Below are positions 7,419 to 64,000 of a stretch of DNA of 64,000 bases, one piece after another. This DNA is from Burkholderiaceae bacterium (GTDB lineage: Bacteria; Pseudomonadota; Gammaproteobacteria; Burkholderiales; Burkholderiaceae_E). The stretch spans positions 1-64,000 of the forward strand of contig JAJPES010000027.1 in assembly GCA_021166725.1 (NCBI GenBank), read 5' to 3'. The notes beneath the pieces are model-generated. The model was not told where the DNA came from. It was given only the letters and a program-made list of their open reading frames with translations, and did not search any database. The first letter of the stretch is position 1. The number at the start of each line of letters is the position of its first letter. The translations under genes were made by a program, and so were the position numbers.

Positions 7419-7580
7419 CGAGGTTCGATCAATCGTTGCCGGCGCGCCCGACGGCGCATCGTTGCGATGCGCTGTTGCAGGCCGGAAATGCCACTGTAGC
7501 GCAGTCGACATCGGGCTCATCGAGCCCGTCGCGATGTCGGCTCGTGCACCCCGCCGTAGCCCGCGCATCGCCTTCGACCA

Positions 7581-7617
7581 TTTGATCAATCGCCTCTTCG
7601 TTTGATGATTTGATCAA
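7581..7617. promoter_or_regulatory. Pair of TTTGATCAA upstream activator sites
   Basis: TTTGATCAA occurs at 7581-7589 and again at 7609-7617, 28 bp apart. Each contains the palindrome TTGATCAA, which matches the known XylR/DmpR upstream activating half-site. They lie 70-105 bp before the -24 element of the divergent operon, where an enhancer-binding activator would sit. The link to the regulator at 5727-7418 is an inference from family knowledge. Confidence 0.72.
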
Positions 7618-7684
7618 CGCCGCCCGCTCGATTGTTGCTGTGCGGCGTAGGGATATCTGCATTGAAATCAATGCTCTTCGATTC

Positions 7685-7700
7685 CGGCACGCATGTTGCT
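7685..7700 (+). promoter_or_regulatory. Sigma-54 (-24/-12) promoter of the cresol-type operon
   Basis: The sequence cGGCACgcatgTTGCT agrees with the consensus TGGCAC-N5-TTGCW, with invariant GG and GC elements at correct spacing. It lies 36 bp before the ATG of the cytochrome gene, leaving a short leader with a clear GAGGAGGA ribosome site. It fits a promoter driven by the divergent DmpR/XylR-like activator. Confidence 0.82.
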
Positions 7701-7735
7701 ATGACTCAGCGCAAACCCGCTCGAGGAGGAGACCC

Positions 7736-8050
7736 ATGCGGAACCCGAGAACCCGCGCGACCGTGTCGCGCTGCCTCGCATTGCTTGCATTCGCGGGCAT
7801 CACATCGACTGCCATCGCCGACAGCAGCGGCAAGTGGCAGAACGGCCAGGAGATCTACCAGAAAGTCTGCGGCTACTGCCACGAAGCGAACGTCGGGCCG
7901 GTGCTCAAGGGACGTTCGCTGCCGGTCGAGTACGTGAGCTACATCGTCCGCCACGGCAACCGGGCGATGCCCAGTTTCCGCCCCAGCGAAATCGACGACG
8001 AGATGCTCGCGCAAGTCGCCCGGCTGATCTCCGGCAAGCCGGTGCAATGA
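7736..8050 (+). CDS. Periplasmic cytochrome c, electron acceptor subunit of 4-cresol dehydrogenase/eugenol hydroxylase type
   Basis: A 104-aa precursor with a Sec signal peptide (residues about 1-28), a single heme motif CGYCH at 45-49, and a probable axial Met at 78 in NRAMPSF. Size and motif fit the small cytochrome subunit (PchC/EhyA) that takes electrons from the flavoprotein encoded 0.65 kb downstream. The ribosome site GAGGAGGA lies just before the ATG. It is the first gene after the sigma-54 promoter. Its stop overlaps the next start (ATGA), so translation is coupled. Confidence 0.85.
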   Translation: MRNPRTRATVSRCLALLAFAGITSTAIADSSGKWQNGQEIYQKVCGYCHEANVGPVLKGRSLPVEYVSYIVRHGNRAMPSFRPSEIDDEMLAQVARLISGKPVQ

Positions 8051-8706
8051 TGGAGCGGCGCGATTTTCTCGGCACCCTCGCGGGCGGCGTCCTGCTCGCC
8101 GGCGCGCCGGTGTTCGTGCGCTCGGCAGCGGCGATGCCCGCGTCAGCGGCGTCGACCGCAACGACGATCGCGCCGAGCGCACGCGGCGAATCCGTACTCG
8201 TCGTCCACCGCAGCGATCTCCCGGGCGCCACTGCGCTCGCAGCAGCCATCGTCGATTCGCTGCGCGAAGCCGGTACGCCGGCGACGATGCTCGGTCGCAG
8301 CGCGGAAGACCTCGCGTCGTTCGCCGCAATCGACGCCGTTCTGCGAGACGCGAACGGCACGCGCATCACCGGCGTCATGGACGACGCAGGCGCGCTGCTG
8401 TTTCAGCAACTCGCCGCATCGCAGGGCCGCACCTGGCTCGTCGAGGGCCAGCACCGCTTCGAAGGTGCGGACGTACGGCATCGTTTGCACGCCGCCGGCG
8501 CTGCGCCCGCGCTCGCCTGGTCCGAGCCCGCCGAAGGATGGGCGCCGCGGATCGCGCGGCACTACACCGGCATCGTTACGGGACGACCCACGCCCCGAGC
8601 AATCGACGCCGGCGCATCGTCGGCGAAGGCTCAAGCGAACGGGACCGGGCTGGTTTCGTTCGTCATCGACTCGAACCAGAGATCCAACGGGAGATCGGCA
8701 CGATGA
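8047..8706 (+). CDS. Tat-signal protein of unknown function within the cresol-type operon
   Basis: A 219-aa product (ATG at 8047; a second ATG follows at 8050). The N terminus ERRDFLGTLAGGVLLAGAP is a twin-arginine signal, so the protein is likely exported folded. The mature part has a short alpha/beta-like stretch (VLVVHRSDLPGATALAAAIV) and no motif I recognise. It overlaps its neighbours by ATGA at both ends, between the cytochrome and flavoprotein subunits, so a role in assembly, flavin or heme loading, or electron transfer is plausible. That is inference from position only. Confidence 0.75.
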   Translation: MMERRDFLGTLAGGVLLAGAPVFVRSAAAMPASAASTATTIAPSARGESVLVVHRSDLPGATALAAAIVDSLREAGTPATMLGRSAEDLASFAAIDAVLRDANGTRITGVMDDAGALLFQQLAASQGRTWLVEGQHRFEGADVRHRLHAAGAAPALAWSEPAEGWAPRIARHYTGIVTGRPTPRAIDAGASSAKAQANGTGLVSFVIDSNQRSNGRSAR

Positions 8707-10250
8707 CTACCCACGACAAGGCGCTACCGAAGGGCGTCGACGCTTCGAAATTCGACAAGGCGCTGGCCGAGCTGCGCACGATCCTGGGCGCCGAACACGT
8801 GCTCGCCGACCCCGAGCGTCTCGTCCCGTACAACAAGATCATGATGCCGGTTCCCGACGAGCAGCACGCGCCGTCTGCGGCGATCACGCCGGCGAACGTC
8901 GAACAGGTGCAGCAGGTGATGAAAGTGCTCAACGAGCACCGGATTCCCGTATATCCGATCTCGACGGGAAAGAACCTGGGCTACGGCTCGGCAGCGCCGG
9001 TGCAGCGCGGGCAGATCGTCATGGACCTGCGCCGGATGAACCGGATCCTGTCGGTCGACGCCGATCTGTGCACGGCACTGGTCGAACCGGGCGTCACCTA
9101 TCAGCAGCTCTACGATTACCTGCAAGAGAAGAAGCTGCCGCTGTGGTTCTCGTGTCCGGCTCCGTCGGCGATCGCGGGCCCGCTGGGCAACACGGTGGAC
9201 CGCGGTGTCGGATATACGCCGTACGGCGAGCATTTCCTGTTCTCGTCGGGGATGGAGGTCGTACTCGCCAATGGAGAGGTGCTGCGCACCGGAATGGGCT
9301 CGATGCCGAACTCGAACACCTGGCAGGTGTTCAAGTGGGGATACGGACCGACGCTCGACGGGATCTTCACGCAGTCGAACTATGGAATCGTCACGAAGCT
9401 CGGCATGTGGTTGATGCCGGCGCCGCCGGACTTCCGGCCTTTCTGCATCCAGTACCCCGACGAGGCCGACATCACGAAGATCGTCGATGCGCTGCGGCCG
9501 CTGCGCATCGCGATGGTGATCCCCAACGCGGTGGTCATCGCGCACACGTTGTGGGAAGCGCCGTGCACGCCGGTGAATCGAGCCGACTACCACAAGGGTC
9601 CCGGCGCGATCGGCGACGATGCGGTGAAGAAGATTCAGAAGGACCACAACATCGGCGCGTGGAACGTCTACGCCGGGCTGTACGGTACGAAGGAAACCAA
9701 CGACGCCAACTGGAAGATCATCGAGGCGGTCGCCGCCGGTACCGGCGGCAAGATCGTACGCGCCGAGGAGGCGCGCGGCAGCAAGGCGCTCGAGTACCGC
9801 TTCGACCTGATGAAGGGCAAGCCGAACCTCGGCGAGTTCGGGCTGTACAACTGGCGCGGCGGCGGCGGCTCGATCTGGTTCGCGCCGGTATCGCAGGCCA
9901 AGGGCAGCGAGACGCAGAAGCAGATGCAGATGGCCAAGCGCATCCTGGCGAAGTACGGTTTCGATTACGTGGGCGAGTTCATCGTCGGCTGGCGCGACAT
10001 GCACCACGTGATCGACCTGCTGTACGACCGCACCGACGCAGAGCAGACGAAGAACGCATACGCCTGCTACGATGAACTGCTGCACACGTTCGCGCGCGAG
10101 GGATACGGCATGTACCGCGCGAACACGGCGTTCGCCGAGAAAGTCGCTGCCACGTACGGGCCGGTCAAACGCGACGTCGAGAGGAAGCTGAAACAGGCGC
10201 TCGATCCGAACAACATCATCGCGCCCGGGCGCTGCGGCATCAGCTTGTGA
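8703..10250 (+). CDS. 4-cresol dehydrogenase (hydroxylating)/eugenol hydroxylase-type flavoprotein
   Basis: A 515-aa VAO/PCMH-family FAD oxidoreductase. The N-terminal FAD-binding region (residues about 50-250) shows YPISTGKNLGYGSAAP and GNTVDRGVGYTPYGEH, typical of PchF, EhyB and vanillyl-alcohol oxidase. The C terminus ends with DPNNIIAPGRCGI. These enzymes oxidise a 4-alkylphenol through a quinone methide that is then hydrated, and PchF/EhyB pass electrons to a cytochrome c. The partner cytochrome lies two genes upstream. The start is the ATG at 8703 overlapping the previous stop. The substrate (p-cresol, 4-ethylphenol, eugenol or vanillyl alcohol) is not decided by sequence alone. Confidence 0.9.
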   Translation: MTTHDKALPKGVDASKFDKALAELRTILGAEHVLADPERLVPYNKIMMPVPDEQHAPSAAITPANVEQVQQVMKVLNEHRIPVYPISTGKNLGYGSAAPVQRGQIVMDLRRMNRILSVDADLCTALVEPGVTYQQLYDYLQEKKLPLWFSCPAPSAIAGPLGNTVDRGVGYTPYGEHFLFSSGMEVVLANGEVLRTGMGSMPNSNTWQVFKWGYGPTLDGIFTQSNYGIVTKLGMWLMPAPPDFRPFCIQYPDEADITKIVDALRPLRIAMVIPNAVVIAHTLWEAPCTPVNRADYHKGPGAIGDDAVKKIQKDHNIGAWNVYAGLYGTKETNDANWKIIEAVAAGTGGKIVRAEEARGSKALEYRFDLMKGKPNLGEFGLYNWRGGGGSIWFAPVSQAKGSETQKQMQMAKRILAKYGFDYVGEFIVGWRDMHHVIDLLYDRTDAEQTKNAYACYDELLHTFAREGYGMYRANTAFAEKVAATYGPVKRDVERKLKQALDPNNIIAPGRCGISL

Positions 10251-10276
10251 ACTGCCCAGACCACGAGGAGACAACC

Positions 10277-11479
10277 ATGAGCATCCAGTCCGTCACCCGC
10301 CGCAATGCGTTGCAGACCCTCGGCGCCGGCGCCGCCGGGCTTGCGATGCCGGCGCTCGCGCTGGCGCAGACCGGCCCGGTTCGAATCGGTTATGCGATCG
10401 CGCGAACCGGGCCGTGGGCCGGCGGCGCGCAGGTGAGCCAGGAACCGAACTACCTGATGTGGGCCGAGCAGCAGAACACCGCGGGCGGCATGGACGTCAA
10501 GGGCGTGCGTCGGCGCGTCGAACTGATCGGCCTCGACGACCGCAGCGAGATCGAGACCTGCATCCGCAGCTACGAGAAGCTGATGGGAAGCGACAAGGTC
10601 GACCTGATCCTGCCGCCGTGGGGGTCCAATGCGAACTTCGCGCTTGCGCCGCTGGCGAACCGCTTCGGTTATCCGATGCTCGCGCCGACCGCGTTGTCGC
10701 GCAAGCTCGTCGACATGCAGTTGCCGTACTTCTTCGCGACGCTGCAGCAGCCCGATCGGATGATGGGTGCGCTGGTCGACATGCTCGTCGCGAACGACGT
10801 GAAGACGATCGCGATTCTCTACATGGACGACCTGTTCGGCCTGGAGAACTTCGCGGCGCTGAACGCCGCGTTGAAGAAGACGAAGATCCAGGTCGTCGAG
10901 CGCAAGGGATATCCGCTGGGCGTCAAGGACCTGTCGCAGGTGCTGCGCACGATCAAGGACCAGAACCCCGACGCGTTCATCGGCATCACGTATCCACCCG
11001 ACACGATCCTCGCCAGCAAGCAGGCCAAGGAGATCGGTTTCAACCCGAAGCTGTTCTACGCGTCGGTCGGCACCGCGTTCCAGTTGTACCGCAACGTCGT
11101 CGGCGCGAGCGCCGATGGCGTGACCGGAATGGGGTCGTGGAACGCAAAGACGAGTCCCGCAGCGAAAGCGTATTTCGAGGCGCACACCGCGAAGTTTGGC
11201 GGCAAGGAGCCCGATCGCTGGGCCAGCGGCCACTGCTGGGCCGGGCTGGAGATCATGGCGCAGGCGGTGGCGAAAGTGGGCCTCGACCGCAAGGCGATGC
11301 GCGACTACGTCGCCCGCAACGAGCACCCGACGATCATCGGACCGATCCGCTTCGAAGGAAGCGAGAACGTGGCAACGCCAGGCAGCGTGGGTCAGTGGCA
11401 GAACGGCGAATTCGAGGTCGTCTGGCCGCGCGAGATCGCGACCGCATCGCTGGTCACGCCGAAGCCCGCGTGGAAGTGA
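10277..11479 (+). CDS. ABC transporter periplasmic substrate-binding protein (LivK-type, probable aromatic ligand)
   Basis: A 400-aa type-I periplasmic binding protein with an N-terminal Tat-like signal (RRNALQTLGAGAAGLAMPALALA). The mature protein begins QTGPVRIGYAIARTGPWAGG, typical of branched-chain amino-acid/aromatic-acid binding proteins (PBP1 group). The start at 10277 is supported by the ribosome site GAGGAGA. It heads an importer cassette with two permeases and two ATPases inside a 4-alkylphenol operon. Uptake of the aromatic substrate is therefore more likely than leucine (inference from context). Confidence 0.88.
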   Translation: MSIQSVTRRNALQTLGAGAAGLAMPALALAQTGPVRIGYAIARTGPWAGGAQVSQEPNYLMWAEQQNTAGGMDVKGVRRRVELIGLDDRSEIETCIRSYEKLMGSDKVDLILPPWGSNANFALAPLANRFGYPMLAPTALSRKLVDMQLPYFFATLQQPDRMMGALVDMLVANDVKTIAILYMDDLFGLENFAALNAALKKTKIQVVERKGYPLGVKDLSQVLRTIKDQNPDAFIGITYPPDTILASKQAKEIGFNPKLFYASVGTAFQLYRNVVGASADGVTGMGSWNAKTSPAAKAYFEAHTAKFGGKEPDRWASGHCWAGLEIMAQAVAKVGLDRKAMRDYVARNEHPTIIGPIRFEGSENVATPGSVGQWQNGEFEVVWPREIATASLVTPKPAWK

Positions 11480-11488
11480 CGTCCCGGA

Positions 11489-12364
11489 ATGTCGTTCGGG
11501 GCATGGTTCGAGCTCGTCGCCTCCGGCTTGATCACCGGGGGCGTCTATGCGCTCGTCGCGCTCGGGCTGAACCTGCAATACGGTTTGATGCGCATCCTGA
11601 ACATCGCGCACGGCGAGTTCCTGATGCTCGGCGCGTTCGCGACCTGGTTCGCGCACACGAGTTTCGGGATTTCTCCGCTGGCGCTCGCGCCGCTAGCCTT
11701 CGTCGTCATGACCGGAATCGGAGTGGCGATCCACCGGCTCACGTTCCGGCGGCTGGCTGCGACGTCGCCGAACGTCGACGTGTTCGAAGCGCGCGGCCTG
11801 ATGGTCAGCTTCGGGTTGATGTTCCTGGTGCAGAACTTCGCGTCGCTGGTCTGGGGCGGCGAGCTGCGCGGGTATGACTACCTGACCGAGCCGCTGGCCG
11901 TCGGCGGTACGCAGTTCGCCGCCAACAAGTTGCTGCTGCTGGCGATCGCGCTCGCGGTGAGCATCGCGCTGATCGTCGTGTTGATGAAAACGCTGCTCGG
12001 CAAGGGCGTACGTGCGCTGATGCAGTCGACTGTCGGCGCGCAACTCGTCGGCATCGACACGGCGCGATTGCACCCGCTGATGTTCGGAATCGGGCTGGGG
12101 CTGTCGGGACTGGCCGGCAGCCTGTTGTCGATGACGTATGCGATCTCCCCTGCGATCGGCGAGCCGTACACGCTGACTGCGCTGATCGTGATCACGCTGG
12201 GCGGCTTCGGCAGCATGGTCGGCAGCCTGTTCGCGGGAATCGCGCTCGGCGTCATCGAGGCGCTCGGCACGCACTTCACGAGCCCATCGCTCAAGCCGCT
12301 GCTGTCGTACGGGATCTTCATCGCCGTGTTGCTGTGGAAACCGAACGGGTTGTTTCGCAAATGA
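11489..12364 (+). CDS. livH: Branched-chain-type ABC transporter permease LivH
   Basis: A 291-aa integral membrane protein with about eight hydrophobic helices and the LivH signatures GGVYALVALGLNLQYG near the start and a GGFGSMVGSLFAG segment near the end. It starts 9 bp after the binding-protein stop. With LivM it would form the inner-membrane pore of the importer. The substrate follows from the operon context, not from this sequence. Confidence 0.9.
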   Translation: MSFGAWFELVASGLITGGVYALVALGLNLQYGLMRILNIAHGEFLMLGAFATWFAHTSFGISPLALAPLAFVVMTGIGVAIHRLTFRRLAATSPNVDVFEARGLMVSFGLMFLVQNFASLVWGGELRGYDYLTEPLAVGGTQFAANKLLLLAIALAVSIALIVVLMKTLLGKGVRALMQSTVGAQLVGIDTARLHPLMFGIGLGLSGLAGSLLSMTYAISPAIGEPYTLTALIVITLGGFGSMVGSLFAGIALGVIEALGTHFTSPSLKPLLSYGIFIAVLLWKPNGLFRK

Positions 12365-12382
12365 CGCGCAGGTGAGCGAACG

Positions 12383-13366
12383 ATGAGCGATCGCCGCGTC
12401 CTTCTGCGCGACCTGCTGGTGCTGCTGGTGCTCACGGCAGGCGCACTCGCGCTGCCGGCTTTCGCGAGCGAGTTCGCCGTTTCGATGGCGCTCACCTGCC
12501 TGATGTACGTGGCGCTCGCCTCGAGTTGGGGCCTGTTCTGCGGCGCGACGCGGTACCTGTCGCTGGCGACCTCGGCGTTCTTCGGCGTCGGCGCGTACAC
12601 GAGCGCGCTGCTGCTATCGGATCTGCCGTGGCTTCTGACGATCGCGCTCGGCGGCGCGATGGCGGTCGTGCTCGCGGTGGTGATGGGCAGTGCGGTATTG
12701 CACCTGCGTGGCACCTATTTTGCGGTGCTCACATTCGGCATGACCGAACTGATCCGCCACGCAATCACCTACGCCGAGAAGACCTTCGCCGGCACGGTCG
12801 GCCGCGTGCTCGCCGTGGTCCCCGAGCGCGACACCGTCTACCTGACCTTGCTCGGGCTTGCGGTGCTCGCGGTCGCCACGTCGATCGCAGTGCGGCGCAG
12901 CCGGCTCGGACTGGCGCTCGCCGGCATCGGCAACGACGAGCAGCGGGCGCAGACGCTCGGCGTGGACACGCGCACCGTGAAGGTGATCGGCTTCGCGATC
13001 ACCGCGGCGTTCGCCGGCGCGACCGGCGCGGCGATGAGCGTGCGCTGGACCTACATCGACCCGATGACCGTCTTCAATCCGTTCATCGGGTTCCAGACCG
13101 TACTGATCGCGCTGATCGGTGGCGCGGCGACGCTGTGGGGTCCGCTGATCGCGGCGATCGTGTTCAGCGTCATCGCCGAGGCGTTGCGCCTGCAGCTGCC
13201 ACAGCTGTACATGATGGCACTCGGTCTGCTGCTGATCCTCTCGGTGCTCTACCTGCCGGGCGGACTGGCGTCGTTGCGGCCGAGCAGCTTCGTCGGATGG
13301 CGCGACCACATCGTCGGCTGGCGCAACCAGCCGCGCGCGGTCGCGAAGAAGGTGCACGATGGCTGA
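12383..13366 (+). CDS. livM: Branched-chain-type ABC transporter permease LivM
   Basis: A 327-aa permease with nine or so hydrophobic helices and the LivM segments LRGTYFAVLTFGMTELIR and GGAATLWGPLIAA. It begins 18 bp after livH and its last 8 bases overlap the livG start. It forms the second half of the membrane channel of the importer. The short basic tail after residue 305 (RDHIVGWRNQPRAVAKKV) is cytosolic. Confidence 0.9.
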   Translation: MSDRRVLLRDLLVLLVLTAGALALPAFASEFAVSMALTCLMYVALASSWGLFCGATRYLSLATSAFFGVGAYTSALLLSDLPWLLTIALGGAMAVVLAVVMGSAVLHLRGTYFAVLTFGMTELIRHAITYAEKTFAGTVGRVLAVVPERDTVYLTLLGLAVLAVATSIAVRRSRLGLALAGIGNDEQRAQTLGVDTRTVKVIGFAITAAFAGATGAAMSVRWTYIDPMTVFNPFIGFQTVLIALIGGAATLWGPLIAAIVFSVIAEALRLQLPQLYMMALGLLLILSVLYLPGGLASLRPSSFVGWRDHIVGWRNQPRAVAKKVHDG

Positions 13367-14141
13367 GTACGCGCGCGCCGTGGGCGTGCCGCACGGCGCA
13401 GACGTGTTGCTGGAGTCGCGCGCGGTGACCGTGCGTTTCGGCGGACTGATCGCGGTCGACGCGATCGATGCGCAGTTCCGCGTCGGCGAACTGGTCGGGA
13501 TCATCGGACCGAACGGCGCGGGCAAGACGACGTTCTTCAATGCGTTGTCGGGCGTGATCGCACCGACGTCGGGCGAACTCGTCGTCGACGGTCGAAATCT
13601 GACCGGCGCGCGGCCGCATCGCTACGCGCAGCACGGGATCGCGCGAACGTTCCAGACTCCGCGCGTGTTCGCTGAATTGAGCGTGATGGCCAACGTCGAC
13701 TTCGGGCTGCAGTTCGCCGGCCGCGGGCGCGGCGGCCCGCCGACGCTGAAGGACGCATCGAGCATCCTCCAGCTGATCGGACTCGCCGGACATGCGGCGC
13801 TGCCGGCGGCGGCGATCACGCCGTCGCAACAACGGCTGCTCGAGATCGGGATGGCGCTGGCCACGCGCCCGCGGCTGCTGCTGCTCGATGAGGTTGCCGC
13901 AGGGCTGACAGAAAACGAGGTCGAGAACACCGCGCAACTGATTCGACGGCTGCGCGGCGAGCTCGGCCTCACGGTGATCTGGATCGAACACGCGGTGACT
14001 ACGCTGATGCGCCACGTGGAGCGCGTGCTGGTGCTGCACCAGGGACGCAAGCTCGCAGACGGCACGCCGGGTGACGTCGTTCGCAATGCGGAGGTCGTCG
14101 AGGCGTACCTGGGCGACGAAATGCTCGAGCCCGCCGAATGA
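13359..14141 (+). CDS. livG: Branched-chain-type ABC transporter ATPase LivG
   Basis: A 260-aa ABC ATPase. Walker A is GPNGAGKTT (about residue 49), Walker B is LLLLDEVAAGL (about 170), and the H-loop His lies in WIEHAV. The signature motif is atypical: TPSQQRLLEIGMAL where LSGGQ-like sequence is usual, a variation seen in several LivG proteins. It overlaps livM at its start and livF at its end (ATGA). It would energise import together with LivF. Confidence 0.9.
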   Translation: MAEYARAVGVPHGADVLLESRAVTVRFGGLIAVDAIDAQFRVGELVGIIGPNGAGKTTFFNALSGVIAPTSGELVVDGRNLTGARPHRYAQHGIARTFQTPRVFAELSVMANVDFGLQFAGRGRGGPPTLKDASSILQLIGLAGHAALPAAAITPSQQRLLEIGMALATRPRLLLLDEVAAGLTENEVENTAQLIRRLRGELGLTVIWIEHAVTTLMRHVERVLVLHQGRKLADGTPGDVVRNAEVVEAYLGDEMLEPAE

Positions 14142-16348
14142 AGCCCGCGCACTTGCGCGTCGAAGGGCTGAGCGCCGGATACGGACGGTTCCTCGTGCTG
14201 CGCGACATCACGCTCGAGGCGCGGCCGGGAATCACCGTGATCCTCGGCCCCAACGGCGCGGGCAAGACGACGTTGCTGAAGGCAATCGCGGGGCTGATTG
14301 CGCGCAGCGGCCGCGTACTGCTCGACGGTACGGCGGTACCGCCCGAGGCCCGCCCCAGCCAGATCGTCGAACGCGGGCTGGCGCTGGTGCCCGAGGGACG
14401 GCAATTGTTCCCGCAAATGACCGTTCGCGAGAACCTCGAACTCGGCGGATGGTTGACGGCGTCCGCCGACCGAGCGCGCCGGCTGCAGCAGGCATTCGAC
14501 GATTTCCCGAAACTCGCGCAGCGCGCGGTCCAACTCGCCGGCACGATGAGCGGAGGGGAACAGCAGATGGTCGCGGTGGCGCGCGCCATGATGAGCGCGC
14601 CACGACTGCTGATGCTCGACGAACCGTCGCTCGGACTTGCGCCGCGGATGGTCGACGAACTGCTTGCGATCGCGCGGCGCATCGCGAATCAGGGAACCAC
14701 GGTGCTGATGGTCGAGCAGAACGTTCGCAAATCGCTCGCCATTGCCGACCGCGGGTACGTACTCGAACGCGGACGGCTGGTGGCCAGCGGCCCCGCTGCC
14801 CTGCTGGCCCGCTCGTCGGTCGTTCGTTCCGCCTACCTCGGCGCACAGGGCGCTACAGGCGCCGCTGCCCACTCGTCTTCGAAGGAGAAAACCATGTCCG
14901 ATCTGTCGATGTTGATCAACGGCCTCGCGGTGAGCGCCGAGAAAGCCGCCACGTTCGAGCGGCGCAATCCGCTCGACGGCAGCGTGGCTACGCGCGCGCC
15001 GGCGGCCAGCGCCGGCGACGCCGTCGCGGCAGCCGAAGCCGCCGCTGAGGCGTTCAAGACGTGGAGCCGCACCGGTCCCACCGAGCGCCGGATGCTGCTG
15101 CTGAAAGCCGCCGACGCGTTGGAGTCGAAGATGCCCGATTTCGTCGCGGCAGTCGCGTCGGAGACCGGCGCAAGCGGAATGTGGGCCGGCTTCAACGTGC
15201 AATTGGCAGCAGGGATGCTGCGCGAAGCAGCGGCGCTGACCACGCAGGTGGCCGGCGAAGTGATTCCTTCCGATGTTCCCGGTTCGCTGGCGATGGCCGT
15301 GCGCCAGCCGGCCGGCGTCGTGCTCGGGATCGCGCCGTGGAACGCGCCGGTGATCCTCGGCGTACGCGCCATCGCCACGCCGCTGGCTTGCGGGAACACG
15401 GTCGTGCTCAAGGGCAGTGAGAATTGCCCGCGCACGCACCAGCTGATCATCGATGCGCTGCAGAAAGCCGGCTTCCCCGCCGGGGTCGTCAACTACATCA
15501 CGAACGCGCCGGCCGATGCCGGGACCGTGGTCGAAGCGATGGTTGCGCATCCGGCAGTGCGCCGCGTGAACTTCACCGGCAGCACGCGGGTTGGCCGGAT
15601 CATCGCGGCAACCTGCGCGAAATACTTGAAACCGGTGCTGCTCGAGCTCGGCGGCAAGGCGCCGATGATCGTGCTCGACGACGCGGATCTCGACGCGGCG
15701 GTGGACGGCGCCGCGTTCGCGTGCTTTGTCAATTCGGGCCAGGTCTGCATGAGCACCGAGCGGCTGATCGTCGACTCACGGATCGCCGACGCTTTCGTCG
15801 AGCGCTTCGTCGCGAAGGCACGCAGCCTGCCGCTGGGCGACCCGCGCGAGCCCGATCCGGTCGTACTCGGATCGGTGATCGGCATGGGCACCGTCGAACA
15901 CTGCAATGCGCTGATCGACGACGCGCTGGGCAAGGGTGCGAAGCTGCTGTGCGGCGGCAAATCTGCCGACACGCTGATGCCGGCAACGGTACTCGATCGG
16001 GTCACACGTGAGATGCGGATCTTCCACGAGGAAACCTTCGCGCCGGTGAAGTGCATCGTGCGCGTCGACGGCGTCGAAGAGGCGGTGGCCTGCGCCAATG
16101 AAAACGAATTCGGACTGTCGGCGTCGGTCTTCGGACGCGACCTCGCGCGCGCGATCGAGGTGGCGCGCCGGATCGAATCGGGGATCTGCCACGTCAACGG
16201 CCCCAGCGTGCACGACGAAGCGCAGATGCCGTTCGGTGGAGTCAAGGGCAGCGGCATGGGGCGTTTCGGCGGCAAGGCCGGCATCCACGAGTTCACCGAG
16301 TTGCGCTGGGTCACCGTGCAGACGACACCGCGACACTATCCGTTCTGA
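14138..16348 (+). CDS. livF: LivF-type ABC ATPase whose frame continues into the aldehyde dehydrogenase
   Basis: Residues 1-235 are a complete LivF ATPase: Walker A GPNGAGKTT, signature MSGGEQQMVAVARAM, Walker B LLMLDEPSLGLAP and a C terminus at RSAYLG. No stop follows. The frame runs through a 17-residue linker (AQGATGAAAHSSSKEKT) straight into the aldehyde dehydrogenase, giving a potential 736-aa fusion. The linker DNA contains a good ribosome site (AAGGAG, 14882-14887) six bases before an ATG at 14894. Separate translation of the second half is therefore likely, with or without read-through. The ATPase module proper is 14138-14893. A lost stop codon or a sequencing error would also explain this. 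Confidence 0.8.
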   Translation: MKPAHLRVEGLSAGYGRFLVLRDITLEARPGITVILGPNGAGKTTLLKAIAGLIARSGRVLLDGTAVPPEARPSQIVERGLALVPEGRQLFPQMTVRENLELGGWLTASADRARRLQQAFDDFPKLAQRAVQLAGTMSGGEQQMVAVARAMMSAPRLLMLDEPSLGLAPRMVDELLAIARRIANQGTTVLMVEQNVRKSLAIADRGYVLERGRLVASGPAALLARSSVVRSAYLGAQGATGAAAHSSSKEKTMSDLSMLINGLAVSAEKAATFERRNPLDGSVATRAPAASAGDAVAAAEAAAEAFKTWSRTGPTERRMLLLKAADALESKMPDFVAAVASETGASGMWAGFNVQLAAGMLREAAALTTQVAGEVIPSDVPGSLAMAVRQPAGVVLGIAPWNAPVILGVRAIATPLACGNTVVLKGSENCPRTHQLIIDALQKAGFPAGVVNYITNAPADAGTVVEAMVAHPAVRRVNFTGSTRVGRIIAATCAKYLKPVLLELGGKAPMIVLDDADLDAAVDGAAFACFVNSGQVCMSTERLIVDSRIADAFVERFVAKARSLPLGDPREPDPVVLGSVIGMGTVEHCNALIDDALGKGAKLLCGGKSADTLMPATVLDRVTREMRIFHEETFAPVKCIVRVDGVEEAVACANENEFGLSASVFGRDLARAIEVARRIESGICHVNGPSVHDEAQMPFGGVKGSGMGRFGGKAGIHEFTELRWVTVQTTPRHYPF
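14894..16348 (+). CDS. Aldehyde dehydrogenase, salicylaldehyde/vanillin/4-hydroxybenzaldehyde type
   Basis: From the internal ATG this is a 484-aa NAD(P)-dependent aldehyde dehydrogenase. Visible motifs are the Asn region IAPWNAPVILG, the general-base motif LELGGKAP, the catalytic Cys in FVNSGQVCMSTER, and the C-terminal PFGGVKGSGMGRFGG. Overall it resembles vanillin and salicylaldehyde dehydrogenases, which oxidise aromatic aldehydes to acids. As the last gene of the operon it would convert the 4-hydroxybenzaldehyde-type product of the flavoprotein. It is preceded by the ribosome site AAGGAG and is in frame with livF. Confidence 0.88.
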   Translation: MSDLSMLINGLAVSAEKAATFERRNPLDGSVATRAPAASAGDAVAAAEAAAEAFKTWSRTGPTERRMLLLKAADALESKMPDFVAAVASETGASGMWAGFNVQLAAGMLREAAALTTQVAGEVIPSDVPGSLAMAVRQPAGVVLGIAPWNAPVILGVRAIATPLACGNTVVLKGSENCPRTHQLIIDALQKAGFPAGVVNYITNAPADAGTVVEAMVAHPAVRRVNFTGSTRVGRIIAATCAKYLKPVLLELGGKAPMIVLDDADLDAAVDGAAFACFVNSGQVCMSTERLIVDSRIADAFVERFVAKARSLPLGDPREPDPVVLGSVIGMGTVEHCNALIDDALGKGAKLLCGGKSADTLMPATVLDRVTREMRIFHEETFAPVKCIVRVDGVEEAVACANENEFGLSASVFGRDLARAIEVARRIESGICHVNGPSVHDEAQMPFGGVKGSGMGRFGGKAGIHEFTELRWVTVQTTPRHYPF

Positions 16349-57506: not shown

Positions 57507-57544
57507 TCGGCCCCGGCCTGCTTTCCACTGAAGAAGGGCGACTC

Positions 57545-58342
57545 ATGCTCCCCGACGCTGCCTACACCGCACTCGACGCGCGCGTCTTTCGCGCCAGTAC
57601 GCTAACGCGAGGTCCGTGGGATCCCGCTCACCAGCATGCGGGACCGCCGATCGCGCTCGTCTGTCGTGCGATCGAGCAGGCGGCGCGCGAGCACGGGCTC
57701 ACCCATATCGCGCGCCTCACCGCGAACCTGCTGCGTCCGGTGCCGATCGGCGAGTTGATCGTCGAGGTGAGCACCGAGTACGCCGGCCGCAACGCGGCGC
57801 ACTTCTCCGCTCAACTGCTGGCCGGCGACAAGGACATCGCGCGCTTCACCGCGCTGGCGCAGCGCGAAACGCCGATCGAGCTGCCGGGGAACCTGATCGG
57901 GCATCCGCTGCCGAAGGCGCCGCTGTCGCCGGACGAATCGCCTGCGGCGAACTTCCCCTTCGCGGGCAGGGCGGTGGGCTACGCCGATCTCGTCGAGACG
58001 CGCATCGCCCGCGGCAGCTTCTGGAACGGGCCATGCGCCGTCTGGTTTCGACTGCGCCATCCGCTGCTGGCAGGAGAGCCGCCGAGCCCGTTCCAGCGTG
58101 TCGCGGTGGTCGCCGACTCGGGCAACGGCGTCAGCGCGGTGCTCGATTACGAGCGCTACACCTTCGTGAACTTCGACCTGACGATCAACCTGCTGCGTCG
58201 GCCGGTGGGCGAGTGGATCTGCCTCGACGCGCGCACGGCGCTCGGTTCCACCGGCGGCGGTCTCGCCGAGTCGGCGCTCTACGACGCGGACGGGTTGATC
58301 GGCCGCGCGACGCAGAGCCTGGCGGTGCGGGCGAGGGCCTGA
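57545..58342 (+). CDS. TesB-like double-hotdog acyl-CoA thioesterase
   Basis: A 265-aa protein of the thioesterase-like superfamily. HAGPPIALVCRAIEQAAREH and LTANLLRPVPIGELIVEVST belong to the first hotdog, and DFDLTINLLRRP-like sequence near residue 215 to the second. The probable helix of the second half begins at NGVSAVLDYERYTFVNFD. Substrate unknown. It lies 38 bp after terC and converges on the MBL gene, 4 bp apart. Confidence 0.78.
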   Translation: MLPDAAYTALDARVFRASTLTRGPWDPAHQHAGPPIALVCRAIEQAAREHGLTHIARLTANLLRPVPIGELIVEVSTEYAGRNAAHFSAQLLAGDKDIARFTALAQRETPIELPGNLIGHPLPKAPLSPDESPAANFPFAGRAVGYADLVETRIARGSFWNGPCAVWFRLRHPLLAGEPPSPFQRVAVVADSGNGVSAVLDYERYTFVNFDLTINLLRRPVGEWICLDARTALGSTGGGLAESALYDADGLIGRATQSLAVRARA

Positions 58343-58346
58343 AGGT

Positions 58347-59474
58347 TCAAAGCGGGACGGTGATTCCCTCGTCGTCCCCGTGGGGGAACACCGCCTCGAA
58401 GCCGAGTTCGTGCTGCAGGTCGGCCTTGCCCCACGCTTCGTTCGTCGCGCAGCGGTAGTTGAAGACCAGCTTCGGCGGTTGCACCAGTGAACGCGCGACG
58501 ATGCGCTGCACCGCTTCCTCGTCCGGATGTCCGAAGATCGCGCCGTTCGTGCTGACGAGGTAGCACGGCGAGCGCAGGAGCGACATCAGCTCGTCGGTGG
58601 TGTTCGCCTTACTGCCGTGGTGCGCGACCTTCACGGCATCGACCTCGAGCGTCTGCAGTCCTCGCTCGTCGAGCAGCCGGCGCAGCGATGCGCAGACGAC
58701 GTCGGGGTGCGCGTCGGCCAGGAACAGCGCGCTCTTGCCGGCCGGCTCGAACTCGGCGAGGAACGCGATGCTCGCGCCGTTGGCGGCGGCGTTGTCGGGC
58801 CGCGACTGCTTCTCGAGCAGCGCATCGAGCTCGGGTGTGCTGCCGAGCAGGCCTTCGGCCGGCAGGTACTTCTTCTGGCGCGCCAACAGCTTCCAGGCGG
58901 CGTCGAAATCGCCCGGATCGAGGTCGCGCACGTCCTTGCGCCAGGCATTGCGCATCCGGTCGAGCGTTGCGAGGGTGGGGGAGAGCAGCGTCAGCGACAG
59001 ACCGTCGGGAAGAACCACGCACGGCAGCGGCGCGTCGTCGCGAACGACGATGGGGCCGCCGTCGAACGCGCCGTTCCACTGGCGCTCGTCGAGCCGTTGC
59101 GCGAGCAGCGCGCTGAAGAACTCTCCCTGCCGTCCGCCGAGAAGACCGTGCGCCCGCTCGAGATGCCGCCAGCCGTTGAACCAGACGTCGTGGACGACGA
59201 AGGGCCACGGCGGCGGCTCGGCGAACAGCCGCACGAGGCCATCCACATGGTCGGTGTCGACGTGCGTGAGCACGACGAGCTCGATGCGGGTATCGCCCCT
59301 CGGCAGCGAGCGCATCTGCGCGTCGAGCGCGCTCCAGGCGCCGATCGGGCCGCCGTCGATCAACACGCGGCGCGTACGCTTGCCGGTTCCGTATTCGATC
59401 CACAGGCAGTCGCCGTGCAGCGCGGGAAGCATCCGGATGCGCAGGAAGGAATCGGCGTTCGCGGCGTCGGGCAT
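58347..59474 (-). CDS. Metallo-beta-lactamase-fold hydrolase (ComEC-like), third gene of the patatin-CHAT operon
   Basis: A 375-aa MBL-fold protein. Metal-binding motif LTHVDTDHVDGL is at residues 69-80, preceded by VLIDGGP. The later motifs ALFLADAH and VKVAHHGSKANTTDEL match ComEC-type MBL domains, which act on nucleic acids or nucleotides. No membrane part is present. The Met at 59474 lies 7 bp after the CHAT gene stop, so the genes are one unit. It could be a nuclease effector or a nucleotide-signal hydrolase. Confidence 0.86.
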   Translation of the reverse strand: MPDAANADSFLRIRMLPALHGDCLWIEYGTGKRTRRVLIDGGPIGAWSALDAQMRSLPRGDTRIELVVLTHVDTDHVDGLVRLFAEPPPWPFVVHDVWFNGWRHLERAHGLLGGRQGEFFSALLAQRLDERQWNGAFDGGPIVVRDDAPLPCVVLPDGLSLTLLSPTLATLDRMRNAWRKDVRDLDPGDFDAAWKLLARQKKYLPAEGLLGSTPELDALLEKQSRPDNAAANGASIAFLAEFEPAGKSALFLADAHPDVVCASLRRLLDERGLQTLEVDAVKVAHHGSKANTTDELMSLLRSPCYLVSTNGAIFGHPDEEAVQRIVARSLVQPPKLVFNYRCATNEAWGKADLQHELGFEAVFPHGDDEGITVPL

Positions 59475-59481
59475 GGTCGGT

Positions 59482-62421
59482 TCACAGCCTCCAGTCGGCG
59501 TCGCCGAAAGCGACGATGCACAGTGCCATCGGCAGGCTCTCGAGCATCGCCTCGCGGCGCGCATCGAGGATCAGCTCGCCGAGCTGGTCGGCCTCGGCGC
59601 CGCCCGCGCGCAGCAGGCGTGCGAGGATCTTCGAGCCGACCGTGACCGCGTGCTCGCCGAACACGGTGGCGGTCGTCGAGATCACAACGGCCGCGCCCGC
59701 CTGGCGAAAGTAGCGGATGTGGTTCGAGAACGGCTCGGCGGTGCCCGCAACATCGCAGCCGAGCAGGAACACCAGCGGCGGCGGGGCGCCTTCCGGGCGA
59801 ACGTAGTCGCGCGGCAGGCGCAGCGTGGCGAGGAAGTCGCCGCCGATTTCCAGCTTCAGGTCCTGGCGGCGGCCTTCGTTGTGCGGAAACGCGACGAGCA
59901 GGGCCGGCTTGCGCTGGCCGACCGTTTCCTTCCACGCCTGCCACGTCCGGGCTTCGAGTGTCGCGTCGCCGAAACGCGGCGACAGCATCGCCAGCAGCGG
60001 CGTGCGCGCGTCCTTCGGCACCTGGGCGCTGAAGCCGAGCACGGCGCAGCGGCCCAGATCGAGCCGGTCGCGGCCCTCGGCCGGCTCGGACTGGATCACC
60101 ACTTCGGCACCGTCCGGCCTGCCGAGCGCCGGGCTGTAGACGTGACGTTCGACGACCTTGCGCAGACCCCAGAATCCCATCGGGCAGACGTAGGCGGCCG
60201 GATCGGCGCGTCCGGCGCAGTCGGACGGACAACTACCGGTCTTCAGTGCTTGGCGAAAGCCGGGGCAGAGCTGGTCTGCGTCGGGCGCCGGCGGTGGGTA
60301 GTCGTAGAAGAACTCGATCGGGACGACTGCATCGGCGCGCGCACTGACGACCTGGATGTGCGTGAGCGCGTCGTCACGCGGATCGAATCCGCCGTGCGCA
60401 AGCTCGACGAACTGGTCGAGGCACAGCGCCGAGTAGAGATCGGCGCCGACGCGTGCGAGCCGCACGAGCAGTTGCGGGTTCTCGCCCTGGTCGAGTCCGT
60501 CGGCGTGATCGGCGATGCTGTGCGCGGCGTCGGACAGCGCCTCGTTCAACTGCAGCAGCGGCTCCGAGAGGCCTTCGAGGCTGGTCGCCCAGGCGCGTCG
60601 CTCGGCGACCGCCGTGAGCCTGGGTACGCCGTCGGTCTCGCCGTGGTTCAGCACCAGCGCCAGATCGAAGGGGCGCCGGGCGCCCAGGTCGCTCCAGTCG
60701 AAGCGCACCTGCGTTTCGTCGAGCAATGCGATGCCTTCGCCGCGCTCGTCGCGCCTTTCTCGCACCTGCGTGCGCAGTCGCGCGGTCTGCAGCACCCGAC
60801 CGCGGTGCAGGACGCCGATGCGCGCATCGAAGGCGCCGCTGCTGCGTGGGGTGAAGACGAACTCGGCTTCGGTGCTCGGACCGGCGCGCGGCAGCGTGAT
60901 CTCGCGCAGCATCGGCTCGTCGAACTGCCGCGCTTCGTGCACGACGATCTGCAGCGTGTGCGTATCGCGATCCTTCGGCAGCTCGTGCTCGGGAAAGGGC
61001 GTCGCAACGCTGTCCCAGCTTGCATCGTCGGGGGTGCCGATGCGCACGAGGAGCATCACCGGCTCGCCCTGTACGTAGCCGTCGTGGATCGCTTCGAGCG
61101 CATCGTCGACCGTCTTGCGCAGGCTGCGCTGCTGCAGGTGGCGCGCCGGGCGGTGCTCGTCGTCCAGTGGACGGCTGCGCGCCGTGTGGGGAGGCGGTGT
61201 GACGGGTGGCGGAGGAGGCGGTTCCCCGGCCGGCGCCTCTTCGACGGGCGACGGAGCGGCGCGCGGTCCCTTCATGCGTTCGACCTCACGGCGCCGTTCG
61301 AACGGCCAACCCCACCGCGCGCCGGACTTGCCCGGCGAGGTCGCGCGCGGTGGAGCACCGGGCATCGGCGCCGAGGGAGCGGTCGGGCGCATCGGCGCCG
61401 ATTCCGACCGAGGAGCGGCCGGCGCTGCAGCCGAGCTCGCCTGCCGCGCCGGCGCACGTTCGCTGATCTCGATCAGCTTCGCGCCGAGCCAGGCGACGTG
61501 GCCCGGCCCGATCGAGCGCATCAGGGCGACGTCCAGTGGACATCCGCGCGCCATCTCATCGGAAAGTTTCGCCAGCGCGCTCGACAATCGCTCGGCGGGC
61601 ATGGCCGGCGCGACGACGACGCCGTCTGCCTGCACCCGCGCGGCCAGCGCGCGAACGAGCGGTGCCGAGCGGGTCGGCCACTCGGAACCGAATCCGGCAA
61701 CGACCGCGAGTGCGCAGCGAGGCAGCGCCGCGGCCTCGAGCACGCGTGCGAGCGCGAACGGCAACGGCTGTGCGAGTGCGAGCAGTTCGACGCGCGGCGT
61801 GCGGCGCGAGGCGATGACGAAACGCGCGCCCTGCGCAGGCCACGCGTACTTCTCCGCGATCGCGAGACGATACTTGCCGAGCGGATCGCCGGGCAGTGCC
61901 GAGACCGTGAACGGCCAGCGCCATTGCGTGGGATGTTCCGGCTTCCATCCCGACTGCACGTGCACGCCTGCGAGCTTCGCCGCGGGATGCGACAGCGCCT
62001 CGACGAAGTCGAGGACCCGTCCTTCGTGTTCGATCTCCTCCAACGCAGCGAGCCGAACGAACGACTCGCTCGCGGTGAAGCGCTCCCAGGCGTCGGCGAG
62101 AGACGCGGCGGACGGCCATTGCCGCAGCCCCGCCGGTGCCGCGCGGGCTCCGGCGGGCGCGGTCGGCACCCGCCACCCGAGAATGCCGTGCGTCGTCCAC
62201 GAGTCCGCCGCGATGGTTCTCAGTAGCTCGAACAGTGCCGACGACGACTCGCCCGCTTCGGCCGCGTCGACTGCAGCGATCCGCCGCGCCCATTGCGGAT
62301 CGACGGGCTGCCCGGCGACGGTGCGATCGAAGGCCGTCAGCACGCCGAGCGCGGCGAGCGCGGCGACGAAGCGCTCGTCTTCGACGCCGAGGCTCCAGGC
62401 GCCCAGGTGGTGCCGGTCCAT
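59482..62421 (-). CDS. CHAT-type caspase-like protease, large multidomain protein
   Basis: A 979-aa protein. The N-terminal half (residues about 1-320) is of unknown type. A Pro-rich linker follows (about 330-430, including GEPPPPPPVTPPP). Next come a beta-rich part and a Cys-rich stretch near residue 735 (LCPGFRQALKTGSCPSDC, then YVCP). The last 250 residues are CHAT-like, with the catalytic His in LLVAFPHNEG (about 847) and Cys in VFLLGCDVAG (about 889), then FRQAGAAVVISTTATVFGEH. CHAT proteases activate partner effectors in several immune systems. It lies 13 bp after the patatin gene and 7 bp before the MBL gene. Confidence 0.82.
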   Translation of the reverse strand: MDRHHLGAWSLGVEDERFVAALAALGVLTAFDRTVAGQPVDPQWARRIAAVDAAEAGESSSALFELLRTIAADSWTTHGILGWRVPTAPAGARAAPAGLRQWPSAASLADAWERFTASESFVRLAALEEIEHEGRVLDFVEALSHPAAKLAGVHVQSGWKPEHPTQWRWPFTVSALPGDPLGKYRLAIAEKYAWPAQGARFVIASRRTPRVELLALAQPLPFALARVLEAAALPRCALAVVAGFGSEWPTRSAPLVRALAARVQADGVVVAPAMPAERLSSALAKLSDEMARGCPLDVALMRSIGPGHVAWLGAKLIEISERAPARQASSAAAPAAPRSESAPMRPTAPSAPMPGAPPRATSPGKSGARWGWPFERRREVERMKGPRAAPSPVEEAPAGEPPPPPPVTPPPHTARSRPLDDEHRPARHLQQRSLRKTVDDALEAIHDGYVQGEPVMLLVRIGTPDDASWDSVATPFPEHELPKDRDTHTLQIVVHEARQFDEPMLREITLPRAGPSTEAEFVFTPRSSGAFDARIGVLHRGRVLQTARLRTQVRERRDERGEGIALLDETQVRFDWSDLGARRPFDLALVLNHGETDGVPRLTAVAERRAWATSLEGLSEPLLQLNEALSDAAHSIADHADGLDQGENPQLLVRLARVGADLYSALCLDQFVELAHGGFDPRDDALTHIQVVSARADAVVPIEFFYDYPPPAPDADQLCPGFRQALKTGSCPSDCAGRADPAAYVCPMGFWGLRKVVERHVYSPALGRPDGAEVVIQSEPAEGRDRLDLGRCAVLGFSAQVPKDARTPLLAMLSPRFGDATLEARTWQAWKETVGQRKPALLVAFPHNEGRRQDLKLEIGGDFLATLRLPRDYVRPEGAPPPLVFLLGCDVAGTAEPFSNHIRYFRQAGAAVVISTTATVFGEHAVTVGSKILARLLRAGGAEADQLGELILDARREAMLESLPMALCIVAFGDADWRL

Positions 62422-62434
62422 CCGACTGCCTGCG

Positions 62435-63544
62435 TCAGGCGAGCGCGTGCATCGGCGCTGGCAGGCCGGGAGCGGGCGACAGTGCGAGCCTCGCGCGCTG
62501 GCGCAGTGCCGCGTCGCACAGCGCGTAGCCCCAGTTCATCAGCCGGCCCTGCAGCCGCTCGTCGAAAGCGGCCAGCCTCGTCGGCACTTCGTCGAGTTCG
62601 CCGGTGATCGTGTTGTCGGCGGCCAGCGGATCGCTTGCCTCGTAGTCGCCGATTCGCGTGCCGATCCCCCAGTACGCGCCGTGCTGGCGTCCCGCCTCGA
62701 ACTCCGCGATGAGCCAGCGCTTGCGAAGCGCGCGTGCCTGGTCGATCAGGATGTCGCGCACGCGGCCCAGCTGCATCACGTTGTCTTCCCAGGGCTCTTC
62801 CTGGATGCCGAAGGGCGCGCCGGCATCGCTGACCAGGACGAGGTCGACGCGACCGACGAGCGATTCGAGCCCCATGTTGTCGTAGACGCCGCCGTCGGTA
62901 AGGACGACGCGATCGCGCAGCGCTTCGAATTCGGGCGCCTTGCTGCCGTCGCGCCACTCGCCGGGATCGGTGTCGAGGACGATCGGCGAGAACACCGGCG
63001 GGAACGCGCTCGACGCCGCCACCGCAATCGACAGCGGCACGGACTCGCTGCGGTTCGTGCCGAGCAGGTAGTCGGCAATGAAGTCCTGTCGGAAGCGGAA
63101 GCTGCGCCCGGTCTGCAGGCTCGTCGCATAGAAGACGAAGCGCGGGTTGCCGGGGCGCGACGCGTCCGGGATGTCCTTCAGCATCGCGCCGTGGAAGAGA
63201 TCCTTGTCGTATCGGTGGGCGAGGAAGTCGCCTGCCGTCCTGAACGGCGTCAGCAGGCCCTTCAGTCCGGCGCCGACGTCGATCGTGCGGCCGCAGAACG
63301 CGCGCACCGGGTCGACGACCAGCGCGTCGAAGTTCGCGGCTCGACCGTCGTCGAACTGCAGGTCCTTCCAGCGATGCGCGAGCACGCCGGCGAGGATCGA
63401 GCCGCCCGAGACGCTGGTGATGCGGTCGAGCTTGCCGAGCAGTCCGGCGTCGTTGAGCCGCTGCAGCGAGCCGAGGCCGAAGAGCGTTGCACGGTACCCG
63501 CCGCCGGACAACGCGATGCCGACCGTCTTTCCGTCGATTGCCAT
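62435..63544 (-). CDS. Patatin-like phospholipase, first gene of the patatin-CHAT-MBL operon
   Basis: A 369-aa patatin. The oxyanion motif is ALSGGGYRATLFGLGSLQRL (residues 11-30), the nucleophile Ser46 lies in TSVSGGSI, and the Asp of the dyad in VVLTDGGVYDNMG (about 217). The catalytic set is complete. Relatives degrade membrane lipids, and several (CapV-type) are anti-phage effectors. There is no signal peptide, so it acts inside the cell. It is followed at 13 bp by the CHAT gene, suggesting control by proteolysis or complex formation (inference). Confidence 0.88.
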   Translation of the reverse strand: MAIDGKTVGIALSGGGYRATLFGLGSLQRLNDAGLLGKLDRITSVSGGSILAGVLAHRWKDLQFDDGRAANFDALVVDPVRAFCGRTIDVGAGLKGLLTPFRTAGDFLAHRYDKDLFHGAMLKDIPDASRPGNPRFVFYATSLQTGRSFRFRQDFIADYLLGTNRSESVPLSIAVAASSAFPPVFSPIVLDTDPGEWRDGSKAPEFEALRDRVVLTDGGVYDNMGLESLVGRVDLVLVSDAGAPFGIQEEPWEDNVMQLGRVRDILIDQARALRKRWLIAEFEAGRQHGAYWGIGTRIGDYEASDPLAADNTITGELDEVPTRLAAFDERLQGRLMNWGYALCDAALRQRARLALSPAPGLPAPMHALA

Positions 63545-63644
63545 GGGCGCTCTCCGTCGCAGCCGTGTCGTGCGTCATCGTCGAACGAAGCACGCGCCGG
63601 CGCAAGCGCGGCGCTCGATGATTCGCGCGCTCGGCGCACGGCGT

Positions 63645-64000
63645 TCAGTTCGGCGGCGCCGGGATCGCCAGCCCTTTGGCCACCGCCGGGCGCTTCACGA
63701 AGGCGGCGAGCACGCGCGCCACCTGCGGGAAATCGTCGAAGCCGACGAGCTCGCGCGCGCCGTAGAACCCGACCAGGTTGCGTACCCACGGAAAGATCGC
63801 GATGTCGGCGATCGTGTACTCGTCGCCCATCATCCACTGGCGCCCCGCGAGGCGCTGCTCGAGCACGCGCAGCATCCGCTTCGACTCGTTCACGTAGCGG
63901 TCGCGCGGGCGTTTGTCCTCGTAGTCCTTGCCGGCGAACTTGTGGAAGAAACCCACCTGCCCGAACATCGGGCCGATGCCGCCGACCTGGAACATCAGCC
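63645..64000 (-). CDS. Glutathione S-transferase, YghU/YfcG-like (5' end outside the window)
   Basis: The visible 118 or so residues are the C-terminal all-helical domain: MFQVGGIGPMFGQVGFFHKF, then KDYEDKRPRDRYVNESKRML and DEYTIADIAIFPWVRNL. This is very close to YghU/YfcG disulfide-bond reductase-type GSTs. The thioredoxin-like N-terminal domain lies beyond base 64000. The frame is open to the window edge. It lies 100 bp upstream of the patatin operon in the same direction. Confidence 0.9.
   Translation of the reverse strand, partial: LMFQVGGIGPMFGQVGFFHKFAGKDYEDKRPRDRYVNESKRMLRVLEQRLAGRQWMMGDEYTIADIAIFPWVRNLVGFYGARELVGFDDFPQVARVLAAFVKRPAVAKGLAIPAPPN

Follow-up and report, generated by a model that had tools for sequence, protein, structure and literature searches.

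We describe a compact three-gene operon in a Burkholderiaceae bacterium that probably encodes an antiphage system of the abortive-infection type, in which a CHAT-like protease would activate an MBL-fold DNase and a patatin would act as a second, membrane-damaging effector. The operon was found in a 64,000-nucleotide stretch of genomic DNA (hereafter the window, meaning the whole stretch analysed) and encodes, in order, a patatin, a 979-aa protein and an MBL hydrolase, all on the minus strand (63544-58347). Our analysis upholds the proposal, made in an earlier note on this DNA, of a candidate defence system combining a CHAT-type protease with a patatin.

Operon structure and genomic context

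The open reading frames of the patatin (63544-62435), the 979-aa protein (62421-59482) and the MBL hydrolase (59474-58347) are separated by gaps of 13 and then 7 bp, exactly the same-strand arrangement first read from the sequence, and the list of reading frames holds no fourth gene of the operon. The MBL protein is 375 aa long if translated from the ATG at 59474; an alternative in-frame start at 59564 would give a longer product whose gene overlaps that of the 979-aa protein. A consensus scan of 58250-63800 returned neither sigma-70-like promoters nor terminators; thus, we infer a single transcript for the three genes from their spacing only.

The operon is flanked by genes for an acyl-CoA thioesterase (57521-58342, plus strand) and a glutathione S-transferase (GST; ending at 63645, minus strand). 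Only the three genes lie between them, and the CD-NTase expected for a CBASS operon with a CapV patatin is absent from the operon. Other neighbours tested, with an annotation that covers the window beyond its first 41 kb, encode TerC, a tripartite-transporter receptor, a pyridoxamine-oxidase-type protein, SelO, an MFS transporter, a cation exchanger, COX1 and a CLC channel. As these are metabolic and transport genes, the stretch does not qualify as a defence island.

The MBL-fold protein is a predicted gated pro-nuclease

The MBL-fold protein (58347-59474, minus strand) belongs to the Avs1a/LmuA/Canu group of nucleases and resembles ComEC. It barely exceeds the Pfam Lactamase_B cut-off (E = 5.1e-5; 23.7 bits vs 22.7) and scores only 31.8 bits against the 220 of the 6A-MBL model. 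PADLOC models of LmuA (2.7e-65), Avs1a (3e-42) and RTasMBL (3e-36) match it, as does the NCBIfam Avs1a model (E = 2.3e-61), at 207.6 bits vs a cut-off of 420 bits. The top fold match of its predicted structure (mean pLDDT 72.2, pTM 0.80, four input sequences) is the ComEC domain 9ic4 (E = 6.6e-10), which bears out the ComEC-like hydrolase recognised earlier. The metal site of this ComEC-like protein is complete: H71, D73, D75 and H76 of the HVDTDH motif (residues 71-76; 59247-59264, minus strand), together with D254, H285 and H286, are invariant in all 18 rows of the alignment.

Tuck et al. (2025; PMC12799240) showed that in Hachiman and Avs1 the MBL nuclease is a pro-enzyme whose two gating insertions are cut by a trypsin-type partner, with isoleucines reported in these trypsin-partnered gates, and that the MBL protein of Canu is activated by a caspase complex and has gates with conserved glycines. 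In the window protein, pLDDT falls below 50 at residues 102-112, 134-140, 180-213, 215-217 and 219-231. The model thus has two predicted disordered insertions near the active site, as gated pro-nucleases require: one at about residues 101-140 (59055-59174, minus strand), with Gly113 and Gly117 inside, and one at residues 180-231 (58782-58937, minus strand), with Gly211 inside.

The glycine columns were read from a MAFFT alignment of 18 MBL proteins, and their positions depend on that alignment. Gly113 is present in 7/7 CHAT-linked and 7/7 Canu-type proteins, as well as in one linked to an ABC-three-component system (L019), and is missing from both subtilase-linked proteins (L025 and L029) and from the MoxR-linked L012. 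Gly211 is found in 7/7 CHAT-linked and 4/7 Canu-type proteins, the other three Canu-type proteins having alanine, so that across the pooled CHAT- or caspase-linked proteins the counts are 14/14 for Gly113 and 11/14 for Gly211. Four residues past Gly113, Gly117 is conserved in 17 of the 18 proteins and in all partner classes except one. The two subtilase-linked proteins share it, and therefore a first-loop glycine is not unique to CHAT or caspase partners. Judged from these columns, each predicted insertion carries a conserved residue, with Gly113 and Gly211 as candidate cut sites and, within the first loop, Gly117 as no less good a candidate.

On a Providencia plasmid (L019, 7004-13142), the MBL protein of the window family is joined to the ABC-three-component system, and at L012 a MoxR-type operon with the MBL gene last (2998-8098) faces a second region (8986-15071) that encodes another MBL protein and a large protein annotated as an S8 peptidase, which also matches the zincin profile.

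The 979-aa protein is probably CHAT-like

With moderate confidence, we consider the 979-aa protein (59482-62421, minus strand) to be a CHAT-like protease. Its AlphaFold2 model is weak (mean pLDDT 55.7, pTM 0.31, four input sequences) and predicts an N-terminal alpha/beta region, a disordered linker (residues about 314-423), a beta-rich region that is possibly a beta sandwich (residues 428-555; 60757-61140, minus strand) and a CHAT-like C-terminal region (residues about 587-979; 59485-60663, minus strand), the last also supported by alignment and Foldseek. The C-terminal His/Cys pair reported earlier was recovered: His847 (codon 59881-59883, minus strand) and Cys889 (codon 59755-59757, minus strand), both predicted to be catalytic, are invariant in all eight aligned rows, the window protein included. 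They are a predicted dyad placed after strands of a caspase-like core, at two residues past strand 841-845 and three residues past strand 883-886, respectively, the strand positions coming from the weak model.

In a Foldseek search of the PDB, six chains matched this model at E <= 0.001: five from the SAVED-CHAT structure 8tl0 (best 1.6e-5) and chain A of 7zoq (4.3e-5), an entry titled as a CRISPR effector with a caspase regulator; we interpret this last chain as the TPR-CHAT subunit. The next hits, at ranks 7 and 8, are to human separase. The best fold matches are therefore CHAT proteases, in agreement with the C-terminal CHAT fold suggested earlier, at the low precision of a model with pTM 0.31 and TM-scores of at most 0.30.

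No Pfam family matches the protein at its cut-off; below the cut-offs, and up to E = 1, C25 peptidases alone give a match (residues 882-960, E = 0.081). The Pfam CHAT family PF12770 matches neither this protein (up to E = 1) nor its five scanned relatives (up to E = 0.5), and the caspase family PF00656, the mark of a CanA protein, is likewise without a match in the window protein. Comparison of its domains by hhalign with the caspases, CanB-like proteins and annotated CHAT proteins of the plasmid loci returned no match, and none of the four PDB sequences matched by a profile of the CHAT alignment (best E = 0.13) is a CHAT protein. We also considered the 979-aa protein as a fused CanA-CanB and rejected this for want of any BLAST or hhalign match. 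At residues 719-746, Cys719, Cys735 and Cys746, likewise invariant in the eight aligned rows, surround a conserved CPM(G/R)F motif and are perhaps a metal site.

Conservation and patchy distribution

The gene order is kept in three other genomes. Identities to the patatin, CHAT protein and MBL protein are 85% (on-contig part), 69% and 81%, respectively, in the Burkholderiales MAG PRO4, and 69%, 58% (C-terminal half) and 65% in the Proteobacteria MAG VITREO1. The PRO4 locus (L002) was counted once, since it lies wholly inside another contig of our set (G010:C97). The third genome, G017, belongs to another family of the order and carries the trio at 46%, 30% and 34% identity, and conservation thus extends beyond close relatives, as the earlier proposal required. 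In six pairwise comparisons with the two MAGs, dN/dS values of 0.22-0.49 indicate that the trio is under purifying selection.

The 979-aa protein was detected in 3/21 genomes searched, its own included, namely 2/13 of the genus plus G017, and in the family of G017 only in G017 itself (1/4 genomes); with searches covering 1, 21, 4 and 18 genomes, any estimate of prevalence from these counts is correspondingly poor. A scan of the genome collection used six exact short peptides and detects close relatives only. A phage origin of the locus was considered and rejected: the window patatin has no match among 50,697 phage records, and the viral contigs contain no confirmed relative of the 979-aa protein.

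The interval between the thioesterase and GST genes is variable. In G012 the two genes are less than 40 bp apart and the slot lacks the trio, in G010 the trio adjoins the thioesterase gene as it does in the window, and in G002 and G004 other genes lie in between. In the remaining genomes with a thioesterase match, no GST gene was found within the sequence examined. The interval is a possible integration hotspot of the genus. Among the interval genes of G002 and G004 (L048, 8466-9109; L052, 4133-4612), one resembles an HTH antitoxin by eye.

This distribution bears on whether the operon has a role in defence at all. A cell-envelope or stress-response operon would be in keeping with the metabolic neighbourhood of the trio; the patchy presence within the genus, the variable slot, the plasmid-borne relatives (some with defence neighbours, see below) and the family to which the MBL protein belongs make such a function very unlikely.

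On plasmids, a CHAT-MBL pair occurs in Sinorhizobium (two), Cupriavidus (two alike records) and Azospirillum, with 26-29% identity to the window protein over the CHAT half and 33-34% for the MBL protein. A profile scan found no patatin in the available flanks of four of these pairs (L005-L008, including one of the two Cupriavidus records), and the patatin is thus dispensable in part of the family.

The earlier note had made the patatin the protease target. Since the MBL protein is a member of a protease-activated pro-nuclease group, it is instead the best-supported target. A CHAT protease acting chiefly to activate or free the patatin, beside an MBL protein that hydrolyses a nucleic acid or a signal independently, would suit the position of the patatin gene at the head of the operon and the occurrence of patatin relatives with several protease classes. 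We regard this as distinctly unlikely given that the MBL protein falls in a group of DNase pro-enzymes, has gate-like insertions and remains with the CHAT protein where the patatin is unseen.

The patatin and its recurrence with MBL proteins and other proteases

The patatin-like phospholipase (369 aa; 62435-63544, minus strand), the predicted second effector, matches PF01734 (E = 3.7e-15). The intact Ser-Asp dyad noted earlier proved to be fully conserved: the predicted nucleophile Ser46 in the SVSGGS motif (codon 63407-63409, minus strand) and the predicted catalytic Asp217 in DGG (codon 62894-62896, minus strand) are invariant in 13/13 aligned rows, the window protein counted in, and are presumably the catalytic dyad, going by what is known of the patatin family. 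The protein thus has both the family match and the dyad of a patatin phospholipase. A simple hydropathy scan revealed no clear membrane helix. A gate comparable to those of the MBL protein was looked for and rejected, as the alignment contains no clear insertion. Columns 34, 91 and 105 hold glycine in all three CHAT-type patatins and in 4, 4 and 3, respectively, of nine other rows (CHAT-type and S. americanum sequences excluded).

We searched 72,556 plasmid records with the patatin alone and obtained 43 matches, the best 20 of the 43 being 39-48% identical to it. From these best 20, 16 loci were examined with flanks of 6-7 kb (H47, H51, H53 and H56 were left out); 15 were obtained through the patatin and one, L011, through its MBL protein. 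An MBL protein of the window family, defined by a profile match at E <= 1e-5 with a profile built without L025 and L029 and with L011 included, is present in 12/16 of these loci from the best 20 of 43, or 11/15 without L011 (L011, L022-L027, L029, L030 and L058-L060). At L028, L057, L061 and L062 none was found at this threshold in the 6-7 kb flanks. The MBL matches in the zincin loci and L030 are weak, at roughly 2.6e-8 to 5.4e-12. As a control we took 237 kb from the window and from related chromosomal regions, DNA that is chromosomal and unmatched to the plasmids; its MBL, patatin and CHAT matches were to the trio itself only.

A protease or JAB partner accompanies 11 of the 12 patatin-MBL loci. 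L011 encodes a caspase with a CanB-like protein. Zincins are found at L022-L024, L026, L058 (broken), L059 (3.6 kb away from the patatin) and L060; the HExxH motif, the mark of zincins, is present in 6/6 intact partners checked. Subtilases are found at L025 and L029, and an E2-E1-JAB protein at L030. The window order of patatin, protease and MBL is seen again with the zincin (L022-L024) and with the subtilase, at L025 and, with an additional gene, at L029. At L027 an IS element sits between the patatin and MBL genes. At L058 (2116-4303), the zincin gene next to the patatin and MBL genes is apparently broken over several reading frames.

Three of the plasmid relatives adjoin Hachiman or CBASS genes. 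At L022 (8121-12685) and L023 (8121-12683), the patatin-zincin-MBL genes immediately precede a Hachiman-type pair (DUF1837 and a DEAD/DEAH helicase), and a CBASS cyclase gene is located near the operon in L023 and L024. On an Agrobacterium plasmid (L030, 3502-8128), the MBL, E2-E1-JAB fusion and patatin genes form one gene run, in effect a 6A-type operon plus a lipase. At L010 (3238-8080), a gene for a Tle1-like phospholipase (PF09994, E = 2.3e-71) is located 8 bp upstream of a Canu-type operon of caspase, middle gene and MBL; thus, another lipase can occupy the place of the patatin. This operon adjoins a convergent subtilase and AAA ATPase pair.

How closely the patatin is coupled to the protease is the question on which the remaining readings differ. 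The patatin and the protease-nuclease may be separate effectors that share only an operon or a trigger, the protease leaving the patatin untouched. We consider this unlikely: the CHAT-MBL pairs without a patatin in their available flanks, a patatin in S. americanum that is divergent from an adjacent complete Canu-type operon and the failure to see a patatin gate in the alignment favour it, whereas the co-oriented patatin, protease and MBL genes found with three unrelated protease folds suggest coupling. A broader reading, doubtful at present, is that the patatin and the gated MBL protein form a two-effector cassette, directed at membrane and DNA, that recurs beside proteases of at least four unrelated kinds (CHAT, HExxH zincin, subtilase and caspase) and beside E2-E1-JAB, where each protease would trigger release of both effectors and the nuclease loop residues would vary with the protease class.

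Relation to known systems

The protease-MBL core of the operon is already known in kind: Canu, Avs1 and HamMAB have been published as systems built on a protease and a gated MBL protein (PMC12799240). Among the closest systems is Canu (CanABC), compared here by way of Canu-type plasmid loci, defined by their order of caspase, middle gene and MBL, and not with KaeCanABC itself. The window MBL protein is 28-40% identical to seven MBL proteins of such loci, its gene is likewise downstream of a cysteine protease gene, the loop glycines are conserved in both, and the Canu-type L011 is adjoined by a patatin 47% identical to that of the window. Unlike Canu, the window has a CHAT-like protease without BLAST or hhalign matches to CanA-like or CanB-like proteins, lacks a CanB-like gene and carries the patatin inside the operon.

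Avs1, the nuclease-protease Lamassu and HamMAB, with its trypsin-type protease, also pair a gated MBL nuclease with a partner protease, and the window MBL protein matches the Avs1a and LmuA models. However, its partner has no trypsin or STAND match, the operon has no SMC or Hachiman gene, and its loops carry glycines where those of trypsin-partnered proteins carry isoleucines. Membership in Avs1 was rejected on the score of 207.6 vs 420 bits and on the partner without a trypsin or STAND match. The pairing of E2-E1-JAB with an MBL protein has been noted since 2006 (6A operon; PMC1779556, row 6a). Its MBL protein is of the same broad group and at L030 occurs together with a patatin of the window family, while a JAB/ubiquitin-like module stands where the window has the CHAT protein. 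Craspase (Cas7-11/TPR-CHAT) and SAVED-CHAT share the CHAT protease and supply the best Foldseek matches of the weak 979-aa model; in contrast to them, the window genes tested include no CRISPR effector or SAVED domain, and the likely target is the MBL protein.

The earlier description of the system as undescribed stands only in part. The protease and gated MBL core has been published (PMC12799240), whereas the CHAT-like partner and the patatin were not found among the literature matches listed. These were titles and the beginnings of abstracts, exclusive of preprints and supplements, and they include no patatin-CHAT-MBL operon, although such evidence of absence is weak. The main text of PMC12799240 nowhere contains the words CHAT, patatin or phospholipase, and the accessible portion of PMC12419801 has nothing on such an operon. 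The CHAT-like partner, and a patatin recurring with this MBL protein across protease classes, thus appear to be undescribed among the matches listed.

Proposed mechanism

In the antiphage reading that we favour, infection would be sensed, the probable sensor being the N-terminal part of the 979-aa protein or another partner, whereupon the C-terminal CHAT-like cysteine protease (His847/Cys889) would be switched on. The protease would then cut the two flexible loops over the MBL active site, at or near the conserved glycines, and the freed MBL protein would degrade DNA. The patatin would attack membrane lipids as the second effector, and may be controlled by the protease too. The weakest steps are the coupling of the patatin to the protease and the sensing itself, for which the analysis revealed no candidate domain; the patatin may be a substrate, an effector acting in parallel or a maker of a lipid signal.

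Counting against this scheme are the non-defence neighbourhood, the weak CHAT model, the missing PF12770 match and the lack of profile matches to CHAT or caspase proteins, as well as the patatin missing near L005-L008, the lack of a recognised patatin gate, the 4/16 patatin loci without an MBL protein and the presence of Gly117 in subtilase-linked proteins. In its favour are the family and fold of the MBL protein, the low-pLDDT insertions where gates are expected and loop glycines in line with Canu, along with the CHAT-MBL pairs on plasmids, the trio in three genomes, the recurrence of patatin with MBL, the variable slot and the defence neighbours.

Implications

The locus offers a testable case in which a gated nuclease and a lipase accompany a CHAT-like protease: a probable switch for defence against viruses, closely akin to recently described ones, but with another protease and a lipase besides. 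With four protease folds swapped around a recurring patatin-MBL pair, co-evolution of the cut sites with the protease becomes a question that can be addressed, as does the existence in bacteria of a caspase-like cascade that has two executioners. If the two-effector cassette is real, bacterial immunity would have in the patatin a second effector under proteolytic control.
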